Source: Arcobacter roscoffensis (lineage in GTDB: Bacteria; Campylobacterota; Campylobacteria; Campylobacterales; Arcobacteraceae). From it: a stretch of DNA of 64,000 nucleotides. The notes beneath the pieces are model-generated. The model made no database searches. It was not told the DNA's origin and saw only the letters and a program-made list of their open reading frames with translations. The translations under genes and the position numbers were made by a program. The number at the start of each line of letters is the position of its first letter. The first letter of the stretch is position 1. The stretch covers positions 496,001-560,000 of the forward strand of contig NZ_CP100595.1 of NCBI RefSeq assembly GCF_024267655.1, read 5' to 3'. Positions 12,405 to 54,152 of this stretch are shown here, piece after piece.

Positions 12405-12435
12405 ACTTGATATTTAAGCTTTGGAGAAAAAATAC

Positions 12436-15252: not shown

Positions 15253-15692
15253 AATATTAGATTTTTTAACTTTTCATTTACTTCTTTAAAAATCTTATCA
15301 TCAAAATTTAATTTATGATACTTTTTATAAGATATAAAAACTTCATTTTTAACTTCATAAATAGAGATACCTAAAGGACAATAAGTAATATTTGAAGGGT
15401 TTTCTTGAATCATTTTCAAAGTAAAGCTACTTTTACACATAAGTAGATTTATACCATTTGTTAAAACAGCTTTTTGCTTTAAAGCTTTGGCTACATTTGA
15501 TGTAGATTTTGCAAGATTTAGTTCATGGACTATTATAAAACCTTGAAAACTAATTTCATCTTTTAGATTTACTAATACTTCTTGAAAACTTTCACTTTCT
15601 ACCTTAACACTAAAAAGATTTTCATTTTCTATGATTTTATAGTTTGCACTCAAAGTACAAACCATAAAACAAAAAAGTATTAGCTTTTTCAT
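15237..15692 (-). CDS. DUF302 domain periplasmic protein
   Basis: This 151-residue protein has a signal peptide at 1-16 and then a single DUF302-like domain. It has FQEVLVNLKDEISFQGFIIVHELN, followed by a stretch around NLLMCKSS and YCPLGISIYEVKNEVFISY. The family has an alpha/beta fold of unknown function and is common next to redox and metal genes. It starts at the last base of the upstream binding-protein stop codon, so it is co-transcribed from P3 and translationally coupled. No catalytic residues can be named. Confidence 0.75.
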   Translation of the reverse strand: MKKLILFCFMVCTLSANYKIIENENLFSVKVESESFQEVLVNLKDEISFQGFIIVHELNLAKSTSNVAKALKQKAVLTNGINLLMCKSSFTLKMIQENPSNITYCPLGISIYEVKNEVFISYKKYHKLNFDDKIFKEVNEKLKNLILKSLD

Positions 15693-16840
15693 TACTTTTT
15701 ACACTCCATTTCAAATGGTGCTATACCTAAAGTATCAAGGTCTGTTTGAGGATGTAAGAATCCAACTTGTGGTGATGTTGAAACTAATGCTCTTGGTTGA
15801 ACAAGTGCTACAGGCATTCTTAATTGACCGTTAAACTCTCTAAAAGTAAGTTTTCTTCCTTTGTATGCTGCTAGTTCAAACTCTTTTGAGTAGATATATT
15901 TTATATTTGTTTGTAAATCAGCTGTTTTTGTATGAGTTAAAGCATTTACTATTGTTCTAATCGCAACCCAGTTTGAATAATCAGTAGATTGCATCCATCT
16001 TTTTGCAAACTTTTCAAATCTACTTTGCATTTGTGCAGCTCCCCAAGCTTCAATAACTTTATGCCATGTAACTGGTGTTAAACCTTGTGTTCCAGCAACT
16101 GGTCTTGGAAGCCAAGTGTTAAAATACATAAACTCACCAAAATCTCCATAATAATCAGCCAATAATATTAAGTCATAATTCTTAGCTTGTGTAAATACAG
16201 GAAATTCACTACTGGCTTTTCTTCTAATATCACTATTATTATCCCAAACTTTTTCTTCTACTATATTTGCAGCAAACTTTTTAATAGATCTTTTAATATC
16301 TTCTTTAATAAGTAAGTCTTTTTTATGTTCACCACTAATTAAAAAGATGTCTTTAAAGTCTCTTTTTACTAAAAATTGCACTAATCCATCATATAGCATA
16401 GCATTACTTGCTATTGTATGTAAAAGATTATCTTGACAATAGTTTTTTCTAAGATGTGAGTTTTGACTTTTTGCATTAATAAACAGAGTCTTTGATGCAA
16501 GTTTATTTGCTAAAAGTTCTTTTAATAAATCATCTTCTACATTTAAAATAACATAGCTATTCTTATCATTTATAAACTTCTCATATGTACTTATAAGCTC
16601 TTCTTTTTTGTAAGAAATAGCTTCTACTAGGTTATATTTTTGGTTTAAGAATCTAGCACTTTTATTGCTATCCCTTACGGCTACTTGGGCACCTTTTAAA
16701 CCTAAATCATCAGGCTCTTCTATAACATTTGATAATACTGGTGGCTTTTTGATTTTTTGCTCTAGGTATAAAATATTTACTTCTAGTATATTTGCATTTA
16801 GAAAAGTTGCAAATATAAGTAATAATGGTAATAGTCTCAT
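15692..16840 (-). CDS. PQQ alcohol dehydrogenase-system ABC substrate-binding protein
   Basis: This 382-residue exported protein has a signal peptide at 1-17 and a branched-chain-amino-acid-receptor-like (type I) fold. The family, known only from PQQ dehydrogenase clusters, has the N-terminal region ILYLEQ and later GLKGAQVAVRDSNKSARFL. The C-terminal part has WHKVIEAWGAAQMQ and PLALV-like segments. Together with the ATPase at 18488 and permease at 19214 it forms the Ped-type alcohol-linked ABC system. Whether it imports or exports, and what, is not settled. Promoter P3 drives it with the DUF302 gene; AAGGAA precedes the ATG. Confidence 0.85.
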   Translation of the reverse strand: MRLLPLLLIFATFLNANILEVNILYLEQKIKKPPVLSNVIEEPDDLGLKGAQVAVRDSNKSARFLNQKYNLVEAISYKKEELISTYEKFINDKNSYVILNVEDDLLKELLANKLASKTLFINAKSQNSHLRKNYCQDNLLHTIASNAMLYDGLVQFLVKRDFKDIFLISGEHKKDLLIKEDIKRSIKKFAANIVEEKVWDNNSDIRRKASSEFPVFTQAKNYDLILLADYYGDFGEFMYFNTWLPRPVAGTQGLTPVTWHKVIEAWGAAQMQSRFEKFAKRWMQSTDYSNWVAIRTIVNALTHTKTADLQTNIKYIYSKEFELAAYKGRKLTFREFNGQLRMPVALVQPRALVSTSPQVGFLHPQTDLDTLGIAPFEMECKK

Positions 16841-17525: not shown

Positions 17526-18485
17526 ATGAAAAGATTACTACTAGCATCTGCATTATTATCAACAAGTTTATTAGCAGATACTATTTTTGTTTCAAATGAG
17601 AAAGATAATACAATTACAGTTATAGATTCAAATACAGATAAAGTTATAAAAACTTATGAGGTTGGTCAAAGACCAAGAGGTATTTTATTAACAAATGATT
17701 ATTCAAAACTATATGTATGTGCAAGTGATGATGATACTGTTCAAGCTATGGATACAAAAACTGGAGAGATTTTATACAGTCTTCCATCAGGTGAAGACCC
17801 TGAACAGTTTGCTCTACATCCAGATGGAAAAGAACTATACATATCAAATGAAGATGACGGTATTGTAACAGTTGTAGATGTTCAAAAAAAAGATGTTGTA
17901 GCTCAAATAGAAGTTGGTATTGAGCCTGAGGGAATGGCAGTAAGTCCAGATGGATCAATAGCTATTAATACATCTGAAACATCAAACTTTTTACATTGGA
18001 TTGATACAAAAACAAAAAAGATTGTTCATAATACTTTAGTAGATCAAAGACCAAGACATATTGAGTTCACGAAAAGTGGTGATAAGATTTGGGCATCAAG
18101 TGAAATTGGTGGAACTGTAATGGTTATTGATACAAAAACAAAAGAACCTCTTTCAAAAATCTCTTTTAAAATTCCTGGAATTTTTAAAGATTTAATTCAA
18201 CCAGTAGGAATTAAACTAACAAGTGATGGTAAATATGCTTTTGTAGCTTTAGGCCCTTCAAATCACGTAGCTGTAATTGATGCAAAAACATATAAAGTAA
18301 TCAAATACTTATTAGTTGGAAGTAGAGTTTGGATGCTTGATTTTGCTAATAATGAAAAGAAACTTTATACTACAAATGGTGTAAGTGGTGATGTTTCTGT
18401 TATTGATGTAGAATCTTTAAAAGTTAAGAAAACTATTAAAGTTGGAAGATACCCTTGGGGCTTAGCAGTAATTCCAAGTAAATAA
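17526..18485 (+). CDS. PQQ-associated YVTN-type beta-propeller protein
   Basis: This 319-residue exported protein has a signal peptide at 1-17. About seven blades follow, each with the YVTN pattern (TIFVSNEKDNTITVIDSNT, LYVCASDDDTVQAMDTKTG, LYISNEDDGIVTVVDVQ and so on). It matches the beta-propeller family found in PQQ-dependent alcohol catabolism clusters. The role is unknown; it may be a periplasmic scaffold or redox partner. It is the first gene of an operon with the ATPase (2-bp gap) and permease of the Ped-type ABC system. Confidence 0.85.
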   Translation: MKRLLLASALLSTSLLADTIFVSNEKDNTITVIDSNTDKVIKTYEVGQRPRGILLTNDYSKLYVCASDDDTVQAMDTKTGEILYSLPSGEDPEQFALHPDGKELYISNEDDGIVTVVDVQKKDVVAQIEVGIEPEGMAVSPDGSIAINTSETSNFLHWIDTKTKKIVHNTLVDQRPRHIEFTKSGDKIWASSEIGGTVMVIDTKTKEPLSKISFKIPGIFKDLIQPVGIKLTSDGKYAFVALGPSNHVAVIDAKTYKVIKYLLVGSRVWMLDFANNEKKLYTTNGVSGDVSVIDVESLKVKKTIKVGRYPWGLAVIPSK

Positions 18486-20075: not shown

Positions 20076-21866
20076 ATGAATAAGAATAGATTGCTAACTA
20101 GTGCAGTTGCCGTTACACTAGCTGCACTAATTAGTGGATGTGCTATGTCTAACAACACGGGAAATAATAGCATAACAAAAGTTACAAAACCATCATTTGC
20201 ACCAGTTACATATGATGAAATCGTAAATGATGCAAAAACACCTGGTGATGTAGTTAGTTATGGTTTAGGGCCAAAAGGTCAAAGATACTCAACATTAACT
20301 CAAATCAATAAAGATACTATTAAAGATTTAGTTCCTGTATGGAACTTTAGTTTTGGTGGGGAAAAACAAAGAGGACAAGAGTCTCAACCTGTAGTTAAAG
20401 ATGGAGTTATGTATGTAACTGCTTCTTACTCTAGACTTTTTGCTATTGATGTTTTAACTGGTGAAGAGTTATGGCAATATGATGCAAGACTTCCTGATGC
20501 AATTTTACCTTGTTGTGATGTAATTAACAGAGGTGCTGCATTATATGGTGATTTAGTTATTTTTGGAACACTTGATGCAAAACTAGTTGCTCTTGATAGA
20601 AAGACTGGTAAAGTTAAATGGAAAAAAAGAATTGCTAAGTATAAAGATGGATACTCATTTACAGCTGCTCCACTTATTGTAAAAGATATGTTAATCACTG
20701 GTGTATCTGGTGGTGAATTTGGTGTTGTTGGTAAAGTAGAGGCTAGAAACCCAAATACAGGTAAACTTTTATGGACTAGACCAATGGTTGAAGGACATAT
20801 GGGATACTTAAATGGTAAAGAAAATGGTATTACTGGTACTTTAAATGCTACTTGGGAAGGTGATACTTGGAAACATGGTGGTGGTGCTCCATGGAATGGT
20901 GTAACTTACGATCCTGAAACAGACTTAATTTATGTTCCAACTGGAAACCCTGCACCTTGGAATTCTCACTTAAGAAAAGGTGATAATTTATACACTGCTT
21001 CAAGAGTTGCTGTAAATCCTGATACTGGTAAAGTTGTATGGCATTACCAAACTACTCCTAATGATGGATGGGATTATGATGGTATGGCAGAATTTATACC
21101 ATTTGATTACAAAGATGAAAATGGAAATGTTGTAAAAGCAGGTGCTACTGCTGATAAAAATGGATTCTTCTATGTTTTAGATAGAGTTAATGGTAAATAT
21201 ATCAGATCTACTCCTTTTGTTGATAAAATTACATGGGCTAAAGGAATTGATGAAAACGGTAGACCAATTGTAAATGAAGATAACAGACCTGGAGCTCCTG
21301 TAAATGGGAAAAAAGGTAAATCTGTATTCTCAGTACCTTCATTCTTAGGTGGTAAAAACTGGAATCCAATGGCATACTCGCAAAAAACTGGATTATTTTA
21401 TGTTCCTGCAAATGAGTGGGGAATGGATATTTGGAATCAACCTGTTTCTTATAAAAAAGGTGCAGCATACTTAGGTGCTGGATTTACAATTAAACCTATT
21501 TATGAAGATCACATTGGTGCTATCAAAGCTGTTGATCCTGTAACTGGAAAAATTAAGTGGATTTATAAAAACAAAGCACCATTATGGGGTGGAGTTTTAA
21601 CTACTGCTGGTGGTTTAGTAATTACAGGTAATCCAGAAGGTAAACTTTTAGCATTAGATGATGAGACTGGTAAAGAGTTATATTCATTTAATGTTGGATC
21701 TGGAATCGTTTCTTCTCCTATTACTTGGGAGCAAAATGGTGAGCAATATATAGCTGTAGTATCTGGTTGGGGTGGAGCCGTTCCTTTATGGGGTGGTGAA
21801 GTTGCAAAAGCTGTTAAGCTTTTAAACCAAGGTGGTTCAGTTCACGTGTTTAAATTACATAAGTAG
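20076..21866 (+). CDS. PQQ-dependent alcohol dehydrogenase, lanthanide-type active site, predicted lipoprotein
   Basis: This 596-residue quinoprotein oxidises primary alcohols in the periplasm. It has the eight-bladed propeller of the methanol/ethanol dehydrogenase family, with adjacent Cys146-Cys147 (the disulphide over PQQ), metal ligands Glu214 and Asn291 (TGNPAPWN), and catalytic Asp333. Asp335 (WDYDG) sits two residues after Asp333. Lanthanide-dependent XoxF/PedH enzymes have this extra Asp, while calcium enzymes have Ala or Ser. The N terminus ends in the lipobox LISG-Cys22, so it should be a lipid-anchored protein, which is unusual for this family. No haem motif is present, so it is type I. 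It is followed by pqqA. Confidence 0.93.
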
Positions 21867-26810: not shown

Positions 26811-27470
26811 TTAGTTTGGTCTTTCAACCATATAACCACTTCCTCTAATGTTTTTAATAAAGTCTTCTTTTAAAACTTTTTTTACTCTATTTACTTCTGC
26901 TCTTATAGTTGCATTATCTATAAAATCATCATTCCATACATAAGTTCTAAACATATCATATTGTACAACTAAACTTCTATTATGAGCTAGTAGTTCTATA
27001 ATTTGAAGTTGTCTTTTAGGTAGTATATGCGGTTCATTATTAAAGTATAAAGTCATAGTCTCAGCATCAAAACTATAATTCTTTGATAATCTTTTGTGTT
27101 TTTGTGGAGCAATATTTGTTTTTAGAATTTTATTTATTCTAAGTGTTAGCTCTCTTAAATGGAAAGGTTTTTTTAGATAATCATGACAACCTATATTAAA
27201 GGCTCTATCTATATCTTCTATATCAATAAGTGCTGATATAAATATAGTAGGTATCATTCTTTTATTTTCATGTAATTGTTCTAAAACACTTAATCCATCA
27301 ATATTTGGTACATTTATATCAAGTATTAATAAATCAAACTTTTCATTTTCTAAAATATTTAAGCACTCATCACCTTTTGTAGTACTAGTAATAGAGTGAC
27401 CAGTTGATGTTAAATATTCTGTAATCATCTCATTTAACATAATATCATCTTCTAAAAGTAATATTTTCAT
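26811..27470 (-). CDS. OmpR-family response regulator of the PQQ cluster
   Basis: This 219-residue regulator has an intact receiver domain: Glu7/Asp8/Asp9, phosphorylation site Asp51 in LLILDINVP, Ser79 and Lys101. A winged-helix DNA-binding domain (about 130-217) has LPKRQLQIIELLAHNRSLVV and a C-terminal NIRGSGYMVERP. It overlaps the FIST-domain kinase gene by 4 bp and is surely its partner. OmpR/PhoB-type proteins bind tandem direct repeats with about 11-bp spacing. That is the geometry of the element in promoters P1-P8, so this is the best candidate for their activator (inference). Confidence 0.9.
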   Translation of the reverse strand: MKILLLEDDIMLNEMITEYLTSTGHSITSTTKGDECLNILENEKFDLLILDINVPNIDGLSVLEQLHENKRMIPTIFISALIDIEDIDRAFNIGCHDYLKKPFHLRELTLRINKILKTNIAPQKHKRLSKNYSFDAETMTLYFNNEPHILPKRQLQIIELLAHNRSLVVQYDMFRTYVWNDDFIDNATIRAEVNRVKKVLKEDFIKNIRGSGYMVERPN

Positions 27471-29380
27471 TTCTCAATTCCTTTAAATGTATAAGTAAAT
27501 GAAGACCAGTTTTCACCAGATTCTAGTTTTATTCCAACATTTTCTTCACTACAAATTCTTTTTACAAGATTTAGTCCTAGACCAAAACCATCTTTAGATT
27601 CTTCTTCTCTATAATACTCTTCAAAAATTTTTTGAGGTTCTAGTATTTGAACTGAATGACTCTCAATTATGAAATCACACTCACTATTTCTGTAAACTAA
27701 TTTTACAGTTATAGTTTCGTTTGGTAATGTATATTTAATTGCATTTGTAAGATTATTATCAACTATTCTTTGAAGTTTAATCTCATTAAAATTTATTTTT
27801 ATTTCATCTAAATTATGAATAAACTTTAGTTTAGATTTAAATTTTAAAGCTGTTTGAGTAAAAAACTCAATTCTACTTCTAACAAAATCTACTAAATTTA
27901 TTTCATGTGTTGCTTTATTTACTTGATCTTTTTTTACTAAGTAACTTAAATCATCATAAATACTAAAAACATTTTTCATTGCAACTTCAATATTAGATAA
28001 ATATTTATTTTTTCCATGCTCAATTTCATACATATCAATATTCCCCATTATTATTGATAAAGGAGTATTTGTTTCATGAATTGTATATTTTAAAAATTGT
28101 TTTTGCGACTCAACTAAATTTTGAGTATATTTATTTCCTTCTTCTAACTTTTTTGATTGATTACTATAATCTTTTGAAGATTGTTCAATTAGATGAGTTA
28201 AAGCCTGTAAACTTCTTGCTTGTTCACTTATATCGTCATTATCATTTTTTTCTTCAATCTCTTTTTCATCATAAGTTATCTCACTGTTTTCACTAAGTCC
28301 TACAACTGTTAGTGTTTGATTTAATAACTCATTGTGTCCTTCATTATGATAAAACTCTCCATAGGTAAAAAACCCAGAAGTATTTGCAATCTCTGAAAAA
28401 GGCTTTATCTCGATATCAATTAAATCTGGAATATATCTTCTTCTTGCCATGCAAGTATAGATAAAAAATGACTCAACACCTGTTACAGAACACTTATTAA
28501 ATAAAGACTGTAATGGATTGTTCATTATAAGCTCAACATTACCAAATCCTAACTTTACAATATCCCCTTTATTTAAATTACCTGCAAAGCTTAAGCTTCC
28601 ATCATCATGTTTTTGAATTACGGCTCTAGCTACGGGTATTCCATTTTTTTGTACAATCAAAGGAAACTCTATTCCTGTTGCAGGTAGTGCTTTTGCAACA
28701 TATTCACCAAGATACTTTTCATAGAAAGCTAAAGGTGATAAACCTGAGATTTTATAAACTCTATTATCTTTAACTTCTTGTATCTCATGGTTTATTCCTA
28801 TTGGTGACCAATTAAAGTTATAGGCATTACAGATTTTTAGTTCTTTTGAATTTAAAGATACAGCAACAGCACCTTTTGTGATAATTTTATCTTGACATAA
28901 AATAAATGTTTCTTTAAAGGTTGCATTATCAGCTGCCATTCCACCACTTACAACTACTTTACTATTAATAGAGCTTATACCTTTTAAAAACTCTTCCCCA
29001 TTTGTAGTTTCACCATCAGTAAATGTAATAAGTAGTTTTGTATCTTCAGTGCATAACTGTTTTGCTATTTCTTGGCCATTTGTATAAGAGTTGTCATTTT
29101 GTACATAGGCTACTTTTAAATGAGTTTTTTCAAATACAGATATAGATATTACTGTTTTCTTTGTAGAAATATTTGCATTATCTATCTCACCATCAGTTGA
29201 AGAGCCAATACAAATAGCTTGTGGAAGCTCTTTTTTTAATTTATTTAGAATATTTTTCATGATCACTTTTGATTGACCACAAAAAATCTGTATTAATATG
29301 TTTTTTTCTTTTTTTAAAGTATTAAAATCTATTAACAGTTCTAAAGATTCATCTTTGATTGTATAGTTAAATGTTTTCAT
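27467..29380 (-). CDS. FIST-domain sensor histidine kinase
   Basis: This 637-residue, apparently cytoplasmic kinase has no membrane helix. Residues about 1-380 form FIST N and C sensor domains (AICIGSSTDGEI, GGMAADNATFKETF, GFFTYGEFYHNEGHNELLN). A coiled-coil linker follows, then a dimerisation domain with YTIHETNTPLS (His435 is the likely phosphorylated residue) and an ATPase domain (NNLTNAIKYTLP, DGFGLGLNLVKRI). The usual D-x-G-x-G in the ATPase domain is replaced by ESHSV, so activity may be altered. FIST domains are thought to sense small ligands and occur in kinases of PQQ alcohol clusters. No GCTAWA element precedes it. Confidence 0.88.
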   Translation of the reverse strand: MKTFNYTIKDESLELLIDFNTLKKEKNILIQIFCGQSKVIMKNILNKLKKELPQAICIGSSTDGEIDNANISTKKTVISISVFEKTHLKVAYVQNDNSYTNGQEIAKQLCTEDTKLLITFTDGETTNGEEFLKGISSINSKVVVSGGMAADNATFKETFILCQDKIITKGAVAVSLNSKELKICNAYNFNWSPIGINHEIQEVKDNRVYKISGLSPLAFYEKYLGEYVAKALPATGIEFPLIVQKNGIPVARAVIQKHDDGSLSFAGNLNKGDIVKLGFGNVELIMNNPLQSLFNKCSVTGVESFFIYTCMARRRYIPDLIDIEIKPFSEIANTSGFFTYGEFYHNEGHNELLNQTLTVVGLSENSEITYDEKEIEEKNDNDDISEQARSLQALTHLIEQSSKDYSNQSKKLEEGNKYTQNLVESQKQFLKYTIHETNTPLSIIMGNIDMYEIEHGKNKYLSNIEVAMKNVFSIYDDLSYLVKKDQVNKATHEINLVDFVRSRIEFFTQTALKFKSKLKFIHNLDEIKINFNEIKLQRIVDNNLTNAIKYTLPNETITVKLVYRNSECDFIIESHSVQILEPQKIFEEYYREEESKDGFGLGLNLVKRICSEENVGIKLESGENWSSFTYTFKGIEK

Positions 29381-29599: not shown

Positions 29600-31096
29600 A
29601 TGATTTATAGTAAACCGCAGTACAAAGCTCAATATGAGAACTTTATTGGTGGAGAATGGCTAGCTCCAAAAAGTGGAGAGTATTTTGAAAATATTTCACC
29701 TGTTGATGGAGAAGCATTAACAAGAATTCCTAGATCAAATGAAGAAGATGTTGATGCGGCAGTTGCAGCAGCTAGTAAAGCTTTTGAATCATTTAAACAC
29801 ACTTCTGTAATAGAAAGAAGTAACTTATTAAATAAAATTGCTGATGCAATTGAGGGTAACTTAGAAGCTTTAGCAATTGCTGAAACTTTAGATAATGGTA
29901 AAACTATTAGAGAAACATTAAATGCTGATGTTCCTTTAGTTGTAGATCACTTCAGATACTTTGCATCTGTAATTAGAGCTGAGTCTGGAACTGTTGCAGA
30001 TTTAGATGAAAACACTATTTCTCAAGAAGTATATGAGCCATACGGAGTTGTTGCTCAAATTATTCCTTGGAACTTCCCATTATTAATGGCAGCTTGGAAA
30101 TTAGCTCCTGCATTAGCAGCAGGTAACTGTGTAGTTATGAAGCCAGCAAGTGCTACTCCAATGTCAATCTTAGTATTAATGGAAACAATTGCAGATGTAT
30201 TACCAGCAGGTGCAATCAATATTATTAATGGTGCAGGTGGAAAAATTGGTAAACACTTATCAACTCACCCAGACATCAAAAAAGTTGGATTTACAGGTGA
30301 AACTACAACTGGTCAGTTAATTATGCAATATGCAACTGAAAATATTATTCCATCAACATTAGAATTAGGTGGTAAGTCACCAAACATCTTTATGGAATCA
30401 ATTATGGATGCTGATGATGAATTCTTTGATAAAGCAATTGAAGGTTTAGTATTATTCGCATTTAACTCTGGTGAAGTTTGTACTTGTCCATCAAGAGCAT
30501 TAATCCAAGAATCAATCTATGAGCCGTTTATGGAAAGAGTTCTTGAGAGAGTTAAAGCTATTAAATTAGGTGATCCATTAGATACTGATAATATGATGGG
30601 TGCTCAATGTTCATTAGCTCAAAAAGAGAAAATTGCTGAGTATATTAAAATTGGTAAAGAAGAAGGTGCTGAGTGTCTAATTGGTGGAGATATTTTAGAG
30701 TCTGAAAAATATCCAAATGGATTCTATATTCAACCAACATTATTCAAAGGTCACAACAAAATGAGAATCTTCCAAGAAGAAATCTTTGGACCTGTACTTG
30801 CTGTTACTACATTTAAAACAGAAGAAGAAGCATTAGAAATTGCAAATGATACTATCTACGGATTAGGTTCAGGTGTATGGTCAAGAGATGCTCACCAATT
30901 ACATAAATTCTCAAGAGGAATTGAAGCTGGTAGAGTATGGGTGAATTGTTACCACTTATACCCATCACATGCATCATTTGGTGGATATAAAAAATCAGGT
31001 ATCGGTAGAGAAACTCACATGATGATGTTAAACTCTTACAGACACACAAAAAATATCTTAACTTCTTACAGCAAAGATGCTTTAGGATTCTTTTAA
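29600..31096 (+). CDS. exaC: NAD-dependent aldehyde dehydrogenase (AcoD/ExaC type)
   Basis: This 498-residue cytosolic enzyme oxidises acetaldehyde and similar aldehydes to acids. It is recognised from the N terminus (YENFIGGEWLAPKSGEYFENISPVDG), the NAD-binding WNFPLLMAAWKLAPALAAGN, catalytic Glu in LELGGKSPN and catalytic Cys294 in SGEVCTCPSR. This subfamily (AcoD/ExaC) works after PQQ alcohol dehydrogenases in ethanol oxidation. It has promoter P7 with four half-sites and a DUF779 partner gene downstream. There is no signal peptide, so aldehyde must enter the cytoplasm. The symbol is by similarity. Confidence 0.93.
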   Translation: MIYSKPQYKAQYENFIGGEWLAPKSGEYFENISPVDGEALTRIPRSNEEDVDAAVAAASKAFESFKHTSVIERSNLLNKIADAIEGNLEALAIAETLDNGKTIRETLNADVPLVVDHFRYFASVIRAESGTVADLDENTISQEVYEPYGVVAQIIPWNFPLLMAAWKLAPALAAGNCVVMKPASATPMSILVLMETIADVLPAGAINIINGAGGKIGKHLSTHPDIKKVGFTGETTTGQLIMQYATENIIPSTLELGGKSPNIFMESIMDADDEFFDKAIEGLVLFAFNSGEVCTCPSRALIQESIYEPFMERVLERVKAIKLGDPLDTDNMMGAQCSLAQKEKIAEYIKIGKEEGAECLIGGDILESEKYPNGFYIQPTLFKGHNKMRIFQEEIFGPVLAVTTFKTEEEALEIANDTIYGLGSGVWSRDAHQLHKFSRGIEAGRVWVNCYHLYPSHASFGGYKKSGIGRETHMMMLNSYRHTKNILTSYSKDALGFF

Positions 31097-50131: not shown

Positions 50132-50166
50132 AAAAAGGGAAGAGTTTTTACTCTTCCCTTTTTTTA
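50132..50166 (+). terminator. Intrinsic terminator after secF
   Basis: The stem AAAAAGGGAAGAG / CTCTTCCCTTTTT has a six-base T-rich loop and extends into a T run. It is perfectly paired and lies 20 bp after the secF stop codon. Confidence 0.85.
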
Positions 50167-50188
50167 TTTGTATACTATGTATACAGAG

Positions 50189-50242
50189 GCTATATTTAGG
50201 CTATTTATGGGCTATAACAAAGCTATAAACTTATTTTATAAT
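50189..50242 (+). promoter_or_regulatory. Promoter P8 with four GCTAWA half-sites (XdhC-like gene)
   Basis: GCTATA, GCTATT, GCTATA and GCTATA start at 50189, 50200, 50211 and 50222, exactly 11 bp apart each. The last is followed by exactly 9 bp and a perfect TATAAT (50237-50242). The next ATG is at 50275. This puts the XdhC-like gene under the same control as the PQQ cluster, 19 kb away from the nearest other site. Confidence 0.8.
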
Positions 50243-50274
50243 TACTTTAAGAAAATAAATAGGGTAATTATAAA

Positions 50275-51246
50275 ATGTTTAGTAACAAACAAAATATAAA
50301 ATTTTTACAAAAGTCAAAACAAAATAGAAATGACATAGTTTGTATCAATATCTTAGATTACAAAAATAGTTCATATCAAAAAAGTGAATACTCAATGTTT
50401 GTAAATAGTAACTTTGAAACTATAGGTTTTGACAATCTAAAAAGATTAGAAAACTATATCTTAACTTTAGTTGATGATGTAATAAAATCAAGACAAGGTA
50501 GATATGTAATCTTTGATTTAAAAAGTGAAAGTAGTGTGGTTCACACATGGGAGAAAGATTTTTTAAATGATAGTTATGTGAAATGTTGGGTCGAGCCATT
50601 TTATTATGAGGATGATTATGCTTGTATCGGTGAAGCTTTTGAAAACTCACAAAAAGGAATAAATAATACTTTAGTAAGGTCAATTAAGCATAAAAATGCA
50701 TATTGTTTTTTCCCAAATTTTGATGAAAAAGATAACCATTTTAATACAAACAAGAATCTATTTTATCAAAGAATAGAAACTCCTTTAAAACTTTTTATAT
50801 TTGGAGTGTCAAAACAAAGTGAAGAGTTAGTTAAAGTTTCAAACTATCTTGGGTGGCATACAACAGTTTGTGATATAAGAGGTAAAAACTTCAGAAACTA
50901 TAAACTCGCTGATGAACTTTTAATACTTGATTCATATGAGAGTGCATATAAACTAAAAGAAAAAGAGTTTGATGCCGTAGTTGTGATAAATGCAAGTTCT
51001 AATAAAGAATATATAAAAGCTGCACTTGGTTTAAATGTAAGTCATATTGCTATTTTAAACTCTAATAAAAAAGTAAAACAGATAATCGATGAATATCATA
51101 TGGAAGAAAATATCATAGAAGATAAAAGAGTTCATCATATAAGTAAAGCTCAATATGACAGTATAGAAACAGCAGCATTTAAAGTCTGTGCTTTGGTTCA
51201 AAATAGAAGAAAAGATGAGAAAGGAAAAGAACATGAATTTAATTAG
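50275..51246 (+). CDS. XdhC-like protein
   Basis: This 323-residue protein is predicted to be cytosolic. The second half has the XdhC/CoxI-type Rossmann domain: LKLFIFGVSKQSEELV (glycine at 177), then NYLGWHTTVCDIRGKNF and FDAVVVINASSNKEYIKAAL, ending in a Lys/Glu-rich tail. XdhC proteins insert or modify the molybdenum cofactor of xanthine dehydrogenase and aldehyde oxidase-type enzymes. The N-terminal domain (1-170) is divergent and I see no Ser-Gly-Gly-Cys motif. No molybdoenzyme is in the window. Promoter P8 connects it to alcohol/aldehyde metabolism, and an aldehyde oxidase elsewhere could be its client (inference). Confidence 0.65.
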   Translation: MFSNKQNIKFLQKSKQNRNDIVCINILDYKNSSYQKSEYSMFVNSNFETIGFDNLKRLENYILTLVDDVIKSRQGRYVIFDLKSESSVVHTWEKDFLNDSYVKCWVEPFYYEDDYACIGEAFENSQKGINNTLVRSIKHKNAYCFFPNFDEKDNHFNTNKNLFYQRIETPLKLFIFGVSKQSEELVKVSNYLGWHTTVCDIRGKNFRNYKLADELLILDSYESAYKLKEKEFDAVVVINASSNKEYIKAALGLNVSHIAILNSNKKVKQIIDEYHMEENIIEDKRVHHISKAQYDSIETAAFKVCALVQNRRKDEKGKEHEFN

Positions 51247-51307
51247 TTTTGTACTTTTTATGTTTGCATATTTTGCTTTAGTTTGGAAATTGGGGTTTTC
51301 TTTTTAG
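51233..51307 (+). CDS. 24-residue membrane micropeptide overlapping the XdhC-like gene
   Basis: The ORF encodes MNLISFVLFMFAYFALVWKL plus GFSF, a single hydrophobic helix. The ATG is preceded by AAAGGAAAAGAAC, a good ribosome-binding site, and overlaps the end of the XdhC-like gene by 14 bp. I know no family. Its coupling to the P8 transcript makes translation plausible, but such a short ORF needs direct proof. Confidence 0.5.
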   Translation: MNLISFVLFMFAYFALVWKLGFSF

Positions 51308-51788: not shown

Positions 51789-53138
51789 ATGAAAGTAAGT
51801 AAAATGTGTAATGTAAAAGATTGTGAGTTAGATGAATATGAAAATGGTAAATGTATTTTACACTGTGAAAAAAAAGATTGGTATGAATCAGAAAATGATA
51901 AAAAAAACTGGGAAAAATCAGAAAATAAAATAAAATTATTTTGGGAAATTATAGACGAAAATATTGAAAACCTAAATAGTGTTGATATTGATATTGATGA
52001 AATACGAAAAATGTCAGAAGAAGATAATAAGGAATTCCATTCTTATTTATTTGATAGGGTAATTTTCCCTTGTTCAATTGATAATAGTTCACCTTTTTAT
52101 GCAATTAATGAACATATCGACTTTAATAAAGATGAAGGACTAAATTTAAATTTTGAAAATTGTGAGTTTTTAGGAATTATTAATCTTGAGTATATTTTCA
52201 AATCTAAAAATATTAGATTTTATAGGTGCAAGTTTGATGAGAAGATTAGTTTTTCTAGAATGGTTTTTAAAAATGATTTTTTATTTGAAGGTTGCGAAGT
52301 ACAAAAAAGTATATCTTTTAGGAATATTGTTTTTAATAAAATATGCTCTCTTATTGATACAAAATTTTATCAAAAATTAGATTTAATTCATTGTCGCTTT
52401 AATGATACATCATTAATGAATAATATCACAGTAAATAATTTTACTATAGATAATAGTTTTTTTAGAAAAGAAGTTAATTTTATAGATTCTAAGATTGATG
52501 TATCAAATCGTGAAACTGCAAGAATTATAAAAGACTCTTTTGAACAGCAAAATAATATCATTGAAGCAAATAAATTTTATGCAATTGAAATGCAAAAAAG
52601 AGAAGAAGAATTAAAACCTTCAAAAAACTTTTTTGAATGGCTTGTTTTTAAAACTCATGGTTTAGCTTCAAATCATTCACAAAACTGGTTATTAACTTTA
52701 TTTTGGATTATTATATTTACTTTTATATATTCTTTTTATAGTTATATAAATATTATGAGTACTAAAATAGTTGATATTTCATTTTTTGAGATATACAAAG
52801 ATGTTATTCTATATGAAAAGTTTATAGAGATTAATGAATTAAGTATTTGTATTTTTATTACCTTCTTTATTGGTTTAGTTATTTGGTTAATAACATTTAA
52901 ATTTAAAATTCTAAATAAATCTATTTTTTTTATTTTTATAAGTTGTATATTTTATTTTTTTTATAGTTTTATTACAGGTGACTGGAAATTATTCTTATTT
53001 TCTAATAATGTCAATCCTTTTTCAATAGTAACACAAAATGAAAAGATTAGCTTCTTTGAGTTACTTTACAGAATAATAATTGCATACTTAATCTACCAGT
53101 TTATTATCTCTATAAGACAAAACACAAGAAGAAAATAG
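51789..53138 (+). CDS. Pentapeptide-repeat-like membrane protein
   Basis: This 449-residue protein begins with a Cys cluster (MCNVKDCELDEYENGKCILHCEK) that looks like a small zinc-binding knuckle. Residues about 100-240 have loose pentapeptide-type repeats with regular Phe/Cys (NFENCEF, FYRCKF, FEGCEV, DLIHCRF). A helical linker (ETARIIKDSFEQQNNIIEANKFYAIEMQKREEE) leads to four hydrophobic segments from about 300 to the end. Similar proteins are frequent in Campylobacterota; the function is unknown. There is no strong ribosome-binding site, and ATG 51804 is an alternative start. Its terminal domain is related to the next gene. Confidence 0.75.
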   Translation: MKVSKMCNVKDCELDEYENGKCILHCEKKDWYESENDKKNWEKSENKIKLFWEIIDENIENLNSVDIDIDEIRKMSEEDNKEFHSYLFDRVIFPCSIDNSSPFYAINEHIDFNKDEGLNLNFENCEFLGIINLEYIFKSKNIRFYRCKFDEKISFSRMVFKNDFLFEGCEVQKSISFRNIVFNKICSLIDTKFYQKLDLIHCRFNDTSLMNNITVNNFTIDNSFFRKEVNFIDSKIDVSNRETARIIKDSFEQQNNIIEANKFYAIEMQKREEELKPSKNFFEWLVFKTHGLASNHSQNWLLTLFWIIIFTFIYSFYSYINIMSTKIVDISFFEIYKDVILYEKFIEINELSICIFITFFIGLVIWLITFKFKILNKSIFFIFISCIFYFFYSFITGDWKLFLFSNNVNPFSIVTQNEKISFFELLYRIIIAYLIYQFIISIRQNTRRK

Positions 53139-53239: not shown

Positions 53240-53716
53240 ATGGAAAAAAATAAACAAGGATTTTTGTATCAATTTAATGGTTTTACTTCAAAACATGGTA
53301 CAGATTGGTTCTTAGCTCTTACTTGGATTTTTGTATTTGAAATCATCTCTTCTATTATTGAGTATAAGTTTTTAGACTATTCAAGAACTTATGTGATAGA
53401 TATTCAAGCAGGTGTATTCAAAGAACTTTTGATAGCTGTATTTGTATCTTTTTTTGTATGGCATTTTGTTTATAGTATTATTGAAATGCAAAAAAATCAG
53501 TTTTATTTTTTAGTTATGTATGTTGCACTTATTGCTTATTTTGTTGTGACAAACGATATAACTTTTAATCTTTTATTTCACAATATTATTAACCCTTTTG
53601 AGTATGAGATAAATGGCTTTACACCATATACAGCCGTTCAGATATTTATAAAAATAATCATGCTTTATCTTTTTTTTATGATGTTTAAAGGCCTTAGACA
53701 CAAGTTTTCAAAATAA
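53240..53716 (+). CDS. Membrane protein related to the C-terminal domain of the preceding gene
   Basis: This 158-residue protein has four hydrophobic segments. Its start (YQFNGFTSKHGTDWFLALTWIFVFEII) matches the pattern at the beginning of the membrane domain of the pentapeptide-like protein (FKTHGLASNHSQNWLLTLFWIIIF). Its end (NIINPFEY, then a helix and a basic tail) matches that protein's NNVNPFS region and tail. So it is a stand-alone copy of that membrane domain without the sensor or repeat part. Whether by duplication and truncation or as a natural partner cannot be told. The function is unknown. CCGGAG precedes the ATG. Confidence 0.65.
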   Translation: MEKNKQGFLYQFNGFTSKHGTDWFLALTWIFVFEIISSIIEYKFLDYSRTYVIDIQAGVFKELLIAVFVSFFVWHFVYSIIEMQKNQFYFLVMYVALIAYFVVTNDITFNLLFHNIINPFEYEINGFTPYTAVQIFIKIIMLYLFFMMFKGLRHKFSK

Positions 53717-53807: not shown

Positions 53808-54152
53808 ATGGATTGGGGTAAAGTAACTTATATTTTCTTTTCACTAATGTCACTTACTACAACTGCAGGTTTTCTTTATGAGCCAAATGCAATAGCTTTA
53901 TTTATTGCAGCAGGAGTAAATGTAATATCAACGATTCTAAAAGTTGGGGTTAGAAATCTTCTTGCAGCAGAGTTGTTGGCAAGTTCATTAGTTGCTGATT
54001 TACACCTAATTCCAGCATTTATGGTATTAACTTTCATGCACGACTTACCACTTGCTATCTCCCTTGCAATTGGTGCAGTAGTAGCAAACGTTTTCTCAAT
54101 AGCTTTAGCTTTAATTGAGAGTGCAAAAATTCAAGAGAAGGACGACTTTTAA
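53808..54152 (+). CDS. DUF6394 membrane protein
   Basis: This 114-residue protein has three or four hydrophobic segments ([56 protein letters not shown]) and a short acidic tail. It matches the small family found between secF and leuS in Helicobacter and Campylobacter. The function is unknown. GGATAAA precedes the ATG. Its stop overlaps the leuS start by one base, indicating coupling. Confidence 0.85.

Follow-up and report, generated by a model that had tools for sequence, protein, structure and literature searches.

The proteins of the XdhC/PaoD/CoxI family are molybdenum cofactor (Moco) chaperones, and nearly every XdhC-like protein has one particular cysteine (Cys82 in R. capsulatus; PMC2997495). 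A molybdenum-dependent step is already known beside the oxidation of alcohols by PQQ-dependent dehydrogenases (PQQ-ADH), for in acetic acid bacteria PQQ-ADH has as its partner a membrane aldehyde dehydrogenase (ALDH), a molybdenum enzyme that oxidizes acetaldehyde and depends on MCD (PMC9171043). Neither XdhC nor molybdenum appears in the text of a review of the Pseudomonas ped/exa alcohol cluster (PMC12997753), and in three papers that name both XdhC and pyrroloquinoline quinone, titles and the beginnings of abstracts reveal no link between the two. The window analysed here, 64,000 nucleotides from Arcobacter roscoffensis, contains an XdhC-like gene that the first-pass annotation had assigned to the alcohol regulon of a PQQ cluster, taking it as a hint of either a molybdenum-dependent aldehyde step or a new use of the XdhC fold in PQQ metabolism.

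The operator ahead of the XdhC-like gene

Eight promoters had been proposed for the window (12350-, 12373+, 16897-, 16909+, 17466+, 19992+, 29473+ and 50189+), the last of which, P8, was credited with four half-sites that keep an exact 11-bp phase, together with a perfect TATAAT. All eight were found again, with an offset between half-site and -10 element that is identical across P1-P8, and P8 (50188-50242, plus strand) reads just as described: NGCTAT half-sites start at 50188, 50199 and 50210 (GGCTAT) and at 50221 (AGCTAT), in steps of exactly 11, and the -10 TATAAT occupies 50237-50242, 16 nt from the start of the last half-site. On the minus strand, P1 (12319-12350) and P3 (16866-16897) would serve the operon of a PedF-type cytochrome c550 and a PQQ_ABC_bind gene (15692-16840), respectively. 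The other operators lie on the plus strand, namely P2 (12373-12404) ahead of an ABC substrate-binding gene at 12421, P4 (16909-16940) ahead of gene 16968, P5 (17466-17497) ahead of a PQQ-associated beta-propeller gene at 17526, P6 (19992-20023) ahead of the PQQ-dependent alcohol dehydrogenase (20076-21866) and P7 (29473-29526), which has four half-sites, ahead of an ExaC-like ALDH (29600-31096).

Among the eight, only P1 and P8 match two in-phase half-sites plus TATAAT perfectly and only P7 and P8 have four half-sites; these last two are also the sole hits when the whole genome is scanned for four half-sites and no more than a single mismatch is tolerated. Matches to the operator pair number 13 in the window against 2.4 expected, a count never attained in 100 shuffles, and three exact in-phase GCTAT did not occur once in 7.7 million simulated strand-bases; chance is thus excluded as the source of the P8 pattern. 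Across 104 genomes of the family the fourfold repeat turns up often and a reversed control pattern hardly ever. P8 has the layout of the regulon, in-phase 11-bp NGCTAT repeats with a -10 hexamer 16 nt past the start of the last half-site. In G083, the only other genome of the family with an orthologue, the gene again comes after secF and is preceded by the same four half-sites and a TATAAT whose offset is unchanged. Both the sequence of P8 and its retention in G083 support the proposed membership of the XdhC-like gene in the PQQ-alcohol regulon, as far as this can be read from DNA.

The protein that binds these repeats is very probably the OmpR-type response regulator (26811-27470, minus strand; Response_reg and Trans_reg_C domains), as judged from its class, its proximity and its conservation with the cluster. 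Next to it is the gene for a FIST-domain (NosP-like) sensor histidine kinase (27467-29380, minus strand; FIST, FIST_C, HisKA and HATPase_c). The pair (26811-29380), with its FIST kinase fusion, recalls nosP-nahK near the Pseudomonas ped cluster.

Elements of this kind also occur elsewhere. The longest array that we met has six consecutive 11-bp half-sites (L099:8742, L103:7799, L105, L107, L108 and L109), and in G001 and G030 such an array precedes a gene of the PQQ cluster that looks like a porin gene; genes with N-termini similar to this one have elements upstream in G655 and G648 as well. In four genomes, a two-half-site operator stands ahead of a 400-aa pyridine-nucleotide-disulphide (NDH-2-like) oxidoreductase (G000:C1:3053007 = L204:2008; L205, L206 and L207), a distal regulon member which would reoxidise NADH. 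In G001 and G030 an operator precedes an apparent ethanolamine ammonia-lyase (EutB, named by eye; L212:1504, L213:2128), a source of acetaldehyde. The four-half-site operator of the ALDH type is present in G010, G011, G002 and G026 as well, genomes with no pqqE above the cut-off. TTGCTAT-type forms of the repeat stand before two gene pairs, both named by eye, one for an acetate-type symporter and the other for phosphotransacetylase and acetate kinase (G000:C1:689062, G000:C1:676868, G001:C1:745360), and perhaps mark a sister regulon.

Between secF and P8, a terminator-like inverted repeat with a T run was read by eye (50132-50163, plus strand), and a similar hairpin occupies the equivalent place in G083. 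Behind P8 come, as previously described, an ORF for a 323-aa XdhC-like protein (50275-51246, plus strand) and one for a 24-aa hydrophobic micropeptide, MNLISFVLFMFAYFALVWKLGFSF (51233-51307, plus strand), which overlaps the stop of the former by 14 nt. The first-pass annotation had further seen an insertion between secF and the DUF6394 gene at a place empty in relatives. The gene does lie within that interval; however, DUF6394 (53808-54152) is not its immediate neighbour, as a pentapeptide-repeat gene (51789-53138) and a 158-aa gene (53240-53716) intervene. The place is empty in a few relatives, but many have homologues of these two genes, and G083 has the XdhC-like gene itself. The supposed insertion is thus one of several variable genes in the interval.

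A degenerate XdhC-like protein and its micropeptide

In sequence the XdhC-like protein resembles XdhC only weakly, scoring 32.2 bits against Pfam XdhC_C (PF13478; cut-off 29.7), while its G083 orthologue stays below that cut-off at 13.1 bits. Neither of the two matches the N-terminal domain XdhC_CoxI (PF02625), which is detected in canonical relatives. With the NCBIfam models, the window protein reaches 32.5 bits of the 350 demanded by NF045664 and has no match to TIGR02964, cut-offs that the canonical relatives likewise fall short of. In its AlphaFold model (mean pLDDT 81.5, pTM 0.80), 292 residues align with 3on5, a structure of an XdhC (VIA-align, Z 21.0, rmsd 4.1), far above generic Rossmann matches at Z 11-13, and the model shows a full-length XdhC fold with both domains.

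It is the motifs that have gone. In an alignment with 27 other XdhC proteins, the window protein keeps 34 and the G083 protein 33 of 96 columns conserved in canonical XdhCs, as against 66-92 in five of the more distant canonical rows. Both orthologues have lost the GST-K-G loop, the GVLGS/SGGC turn, the GCNG cysteine site, the second glycine of the nucleotide loop (GxG) and the SH..D, YIG..GN and APxGLDIG motifs; where XdhCs of the regulon type read GCNG, the window protein reads LNDS. Since the resident Arcobacteraceae-type XdhCs read GHG at this site and thus also do without the cysteine, its loss alone is not decisive and it is the sum of the losses that counts; on that sum, the protein would no longer be a Moco-sulfurating chaperone. 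A point against the reading favored below is that the degenerate form of XdhC is carried by two genomes only: G083 is the sole source of an orthologue among the 104 family genomes, and wider samples of the order and the phylum yielded no third degenerate copy. A search of genome contigs with the single protein gave no match, and one with the two-row alignment returned one locus only, at 29% identity.

A functionless, decaying remnant of a lost molybdenum hydroxylase (Mo-hydroxylase) operon would be expected to diverge fast, and the two orthologues are indeed only 39% identical, compared with 85% for the adjacent secF; the eroded motifs and the missing client enzyme (see below) point the same way. 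Decay is nevertheless unlikely, because a frame of more than 300 codons is open in both genomes, both have kept the perfect promoter, the overlapping micropeptide is conserved along with the protein and second codon positions are conserved. Differences between the two genomes at codon positions 1/2/3 amount to 138/93/163 of 302 for the protein and to 13/4/13 of 24 for the micropeptide (Fisher p 0.003), which argues for translation and selection of both.

The G083 orthologue, too, is followed by a hydrophobic ORF of 24 aa with a stop overlap of 14 nt. As a PqqA the micropeptide was rejected, for it contains no Glu and hence no Glu-x3-Tyr core; a PqqA-like peptide, MKWETPMFVDNRFGFEVTMYICNE, precedes pqqB. 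Judged from the two available sequences, on which the micropeptide and any membrane role depend, it is conceivable that the XdhC-like protein now acts as a membrane-associated accessory factor, although we would put this at somewhat less than an even chance.

Molybdenum enzymes, PQQ genes and the operator in other genomes

If the gene served a molybdenum-dependent aldehyde step in this organism, a client enzyme would be expected. A survey of xanthine-oxidase-type and AFOR-type clients detected no MoCoBD_2 (PF20256) enzyme in the complete genome, although the same search was positive in 33 of 104 relatives, and no AFOR_C. Given these absences and the lost motifs, the proposed step is not supported for the window's genome. 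The same evidence bears on the possibility that the protein is a still-working Moco chaperone that serves another molybdoenzyme of the genome during growth on alcohol. Its intact fold would suit such an activity, as would the fact that relatives of the regulon place a Mo-hydroxylase under this very operator; but with no client of either type in the genome, and with the cysteine and the GST-K-G, GxG, SH-D, YIG-GN and AP-G-IG motifs gone from both orthologues, we regard it as quite improbable.

Elsewhere in the family, every XdhC homologue whose surroundings were read has genes for a MoCoBD_2 enzyme and a MobA-like protein as neighbors, except that of G082, where xdhC-mobA stands without a Mo-hydroxylase beside integrase-like ORFs (L217:2421-5066), another route to an orphan xdhC. 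G083 has, in addition to the degenerate gene, an operon of the MoCoBD_2-xdhC-mobA type without the operator. The Arcobacteraceae ior operons were considered as regulon members and dismissed, as no operator precedes iorA in G083 or in the other relatives read. Mo-hydroxylases are found in 18 of 30 PQQ-positive genomes of the family and in 15 of the 74 others (Fisher p 1.5e-4, with kinship ignored), a co-occurrence which is only a hint.

In a search across the phylum, the XdhC that scored best of all others against the two-orthologue pair came from G590, a member of another family of the same order (E 4.5e-66; next 3e-43). Its contig carries a PQQ alcohol dehydrogenase, pqqBCDE, a FIST kinase and an OmpR-type regulator, followed on the opposite strand by iorA-iorB-xdhC and then mobA. 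Immediately 5' of iorA lies the operator, GCTATATCTAAGCTAT-N10-TATACT. Three further genomes of its genus (G643, G648 and G655) have the same operator ahead of the same operon. The PQQ cluster is next to the operon in three of the four (G590, G643 and G655) and outside the stretch read in G648. None of 34 other iorA promoters read has the operator, and it is likewise missing from a second ior operon in G643. G590 also encodes a FIST-MCP fusion, a chemoreceptor, between its PQQ cluster and its ior operon (L222:8622-10622).

IorB carries a twin-arginine signal (RRTFLK), so the Mo-hydroxylase probably resides in the periplasm, as does the PQQ dehydrogenase. By analogy the Mo-hydroxylase is probably an aldehyde oxidoreductase, aldehyde being the natural guess for the substrate in view of the pairing found in acetic acid bacteria. 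A molybdenum-dependent aldehyde step in the regulon is therefore plausible, albeit not where it had been suspected: what lacks support in the window's genome is borne out, in the wider regulon, by four genomes of another family with iorAB-xdhC-mobA behind the operator.

In the tree, a split supported at 100/100 sets the pair, the XdhCs of the regulon and two further XdhCs apart from the resident XdhCs of the Arcobacteraceae type, which contradicts an origin from the xdhC resident in the family. Inside this group branches are long and the tree does not settle their order; a grouping of the pair with the regulon XdhCs is not rejected (AU p 0.41). On balance, the likelier history is that the XdhC-like gene goes back to an XdhC under the control of the regulon and that the enzyme served by this XdhC was lost.

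The new use in PQQ metabolism would make the protein a factor in the synthesis, transport or insertion of PQQ. Both carriers, the window's genome and G083, have pqqE and the element, no orthologue having turned up in a PQQ-free genome that lacks the element, and the gene shares its regulon with the PQQ cluster. However, the gene is missing from 28 of 30 PQQ-positive relatives, so that the protein is not required for PQQ, and with two genomes the co-occurrence is by itself not significant. We thus hold a role in PQQ synthesis, or any such PQQ-related use, to be very unlikely.

A probably orphaned regulon member among known systems

Taken together, we favor with some confidence an orphaned, fast-changing descendant of XdhC that is held under the alcohol switch and possibly works at the membrane with the micropeptide. 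Most likely, the OmpR-type partner of the FIST kinase would switch on the gene through the four 11-bp repeats and the consensus -10. Its ancestor would have been an XdhC chaperone like those that this operator still controls, in another family of the order, together with a Tat-exported Mo-hydroxylase. This enzyme would then have been lost from the regulon in the window's lineage, and from the whole chromosome in the window's genome, and the protein, retaining the fold while shedding the conserved motifs, would have given up Moco sulfuration. Selection would keep the gene together with the overlapping peptide, and its product would most likely now assist the oxidation of alcohols or aldehydes as an accessory or adaptor protein recruited to the membrane. 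That a Moco-chaperone fold without cofactor motifs and a translationally coupled 24-aa membrane peptide form a new module that assists alcohol oxidation by quinoproteins is a more speculative and rather doubtful extension.

On this reading the promoter has outlived its enzyme, the alcohol operator driving a full Mo-hydroxylase operon in one family and a degenerate chaperone alone in another. The contrast suggests that in Campylobacterota a molybdenum-dependent aldehyde step, so far undescribed, is coupled to the oxidation of alcohols with PQQ, and it provides a case in which to see what the XdhC fold can do without molybdenum.

With the XdhC/PaoD/CoxI chaperones (3on5, BH1974; R. capsulatus XdhC, PMC2997495) the window protein shares the full-length fold of an N-terminal domain plus a Rossmann domain; it differs in lacking the conserved cysteine and most conserved columns, in a genome without a client and in falling far below the NCBIfam cut-offs. 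The iorAB-xdhC-mobA operons of Campylobacterales, which in four genomes of one genus have the same 11-bp-repeat operator, encode homologous XdhCs, but these keep their motifs and are placed between a Mo-hydroxylase and a MobA-like gene. The MCD-dependent membrane ALDH of acetic acid bacteria (PMC9171043) provides the molybdenum aldehyde step beside PQQ-ADH that we propose for the operon of the G590 type, yet it belongs to a different phylum and the enzyme is not in the window's genome. Finally, the Pseudomonas ped/exa cluster (PMC12997753) has in common with the window the PQQ-ADH, the PedF cytochrome, the ABC system, an ExaC-type ALDH and a NosP-type sensor nearby, whereas the 11-bp direct repeats, the regulator of the OmpR type and the fusion of FIST domain and kinase set the window apart.
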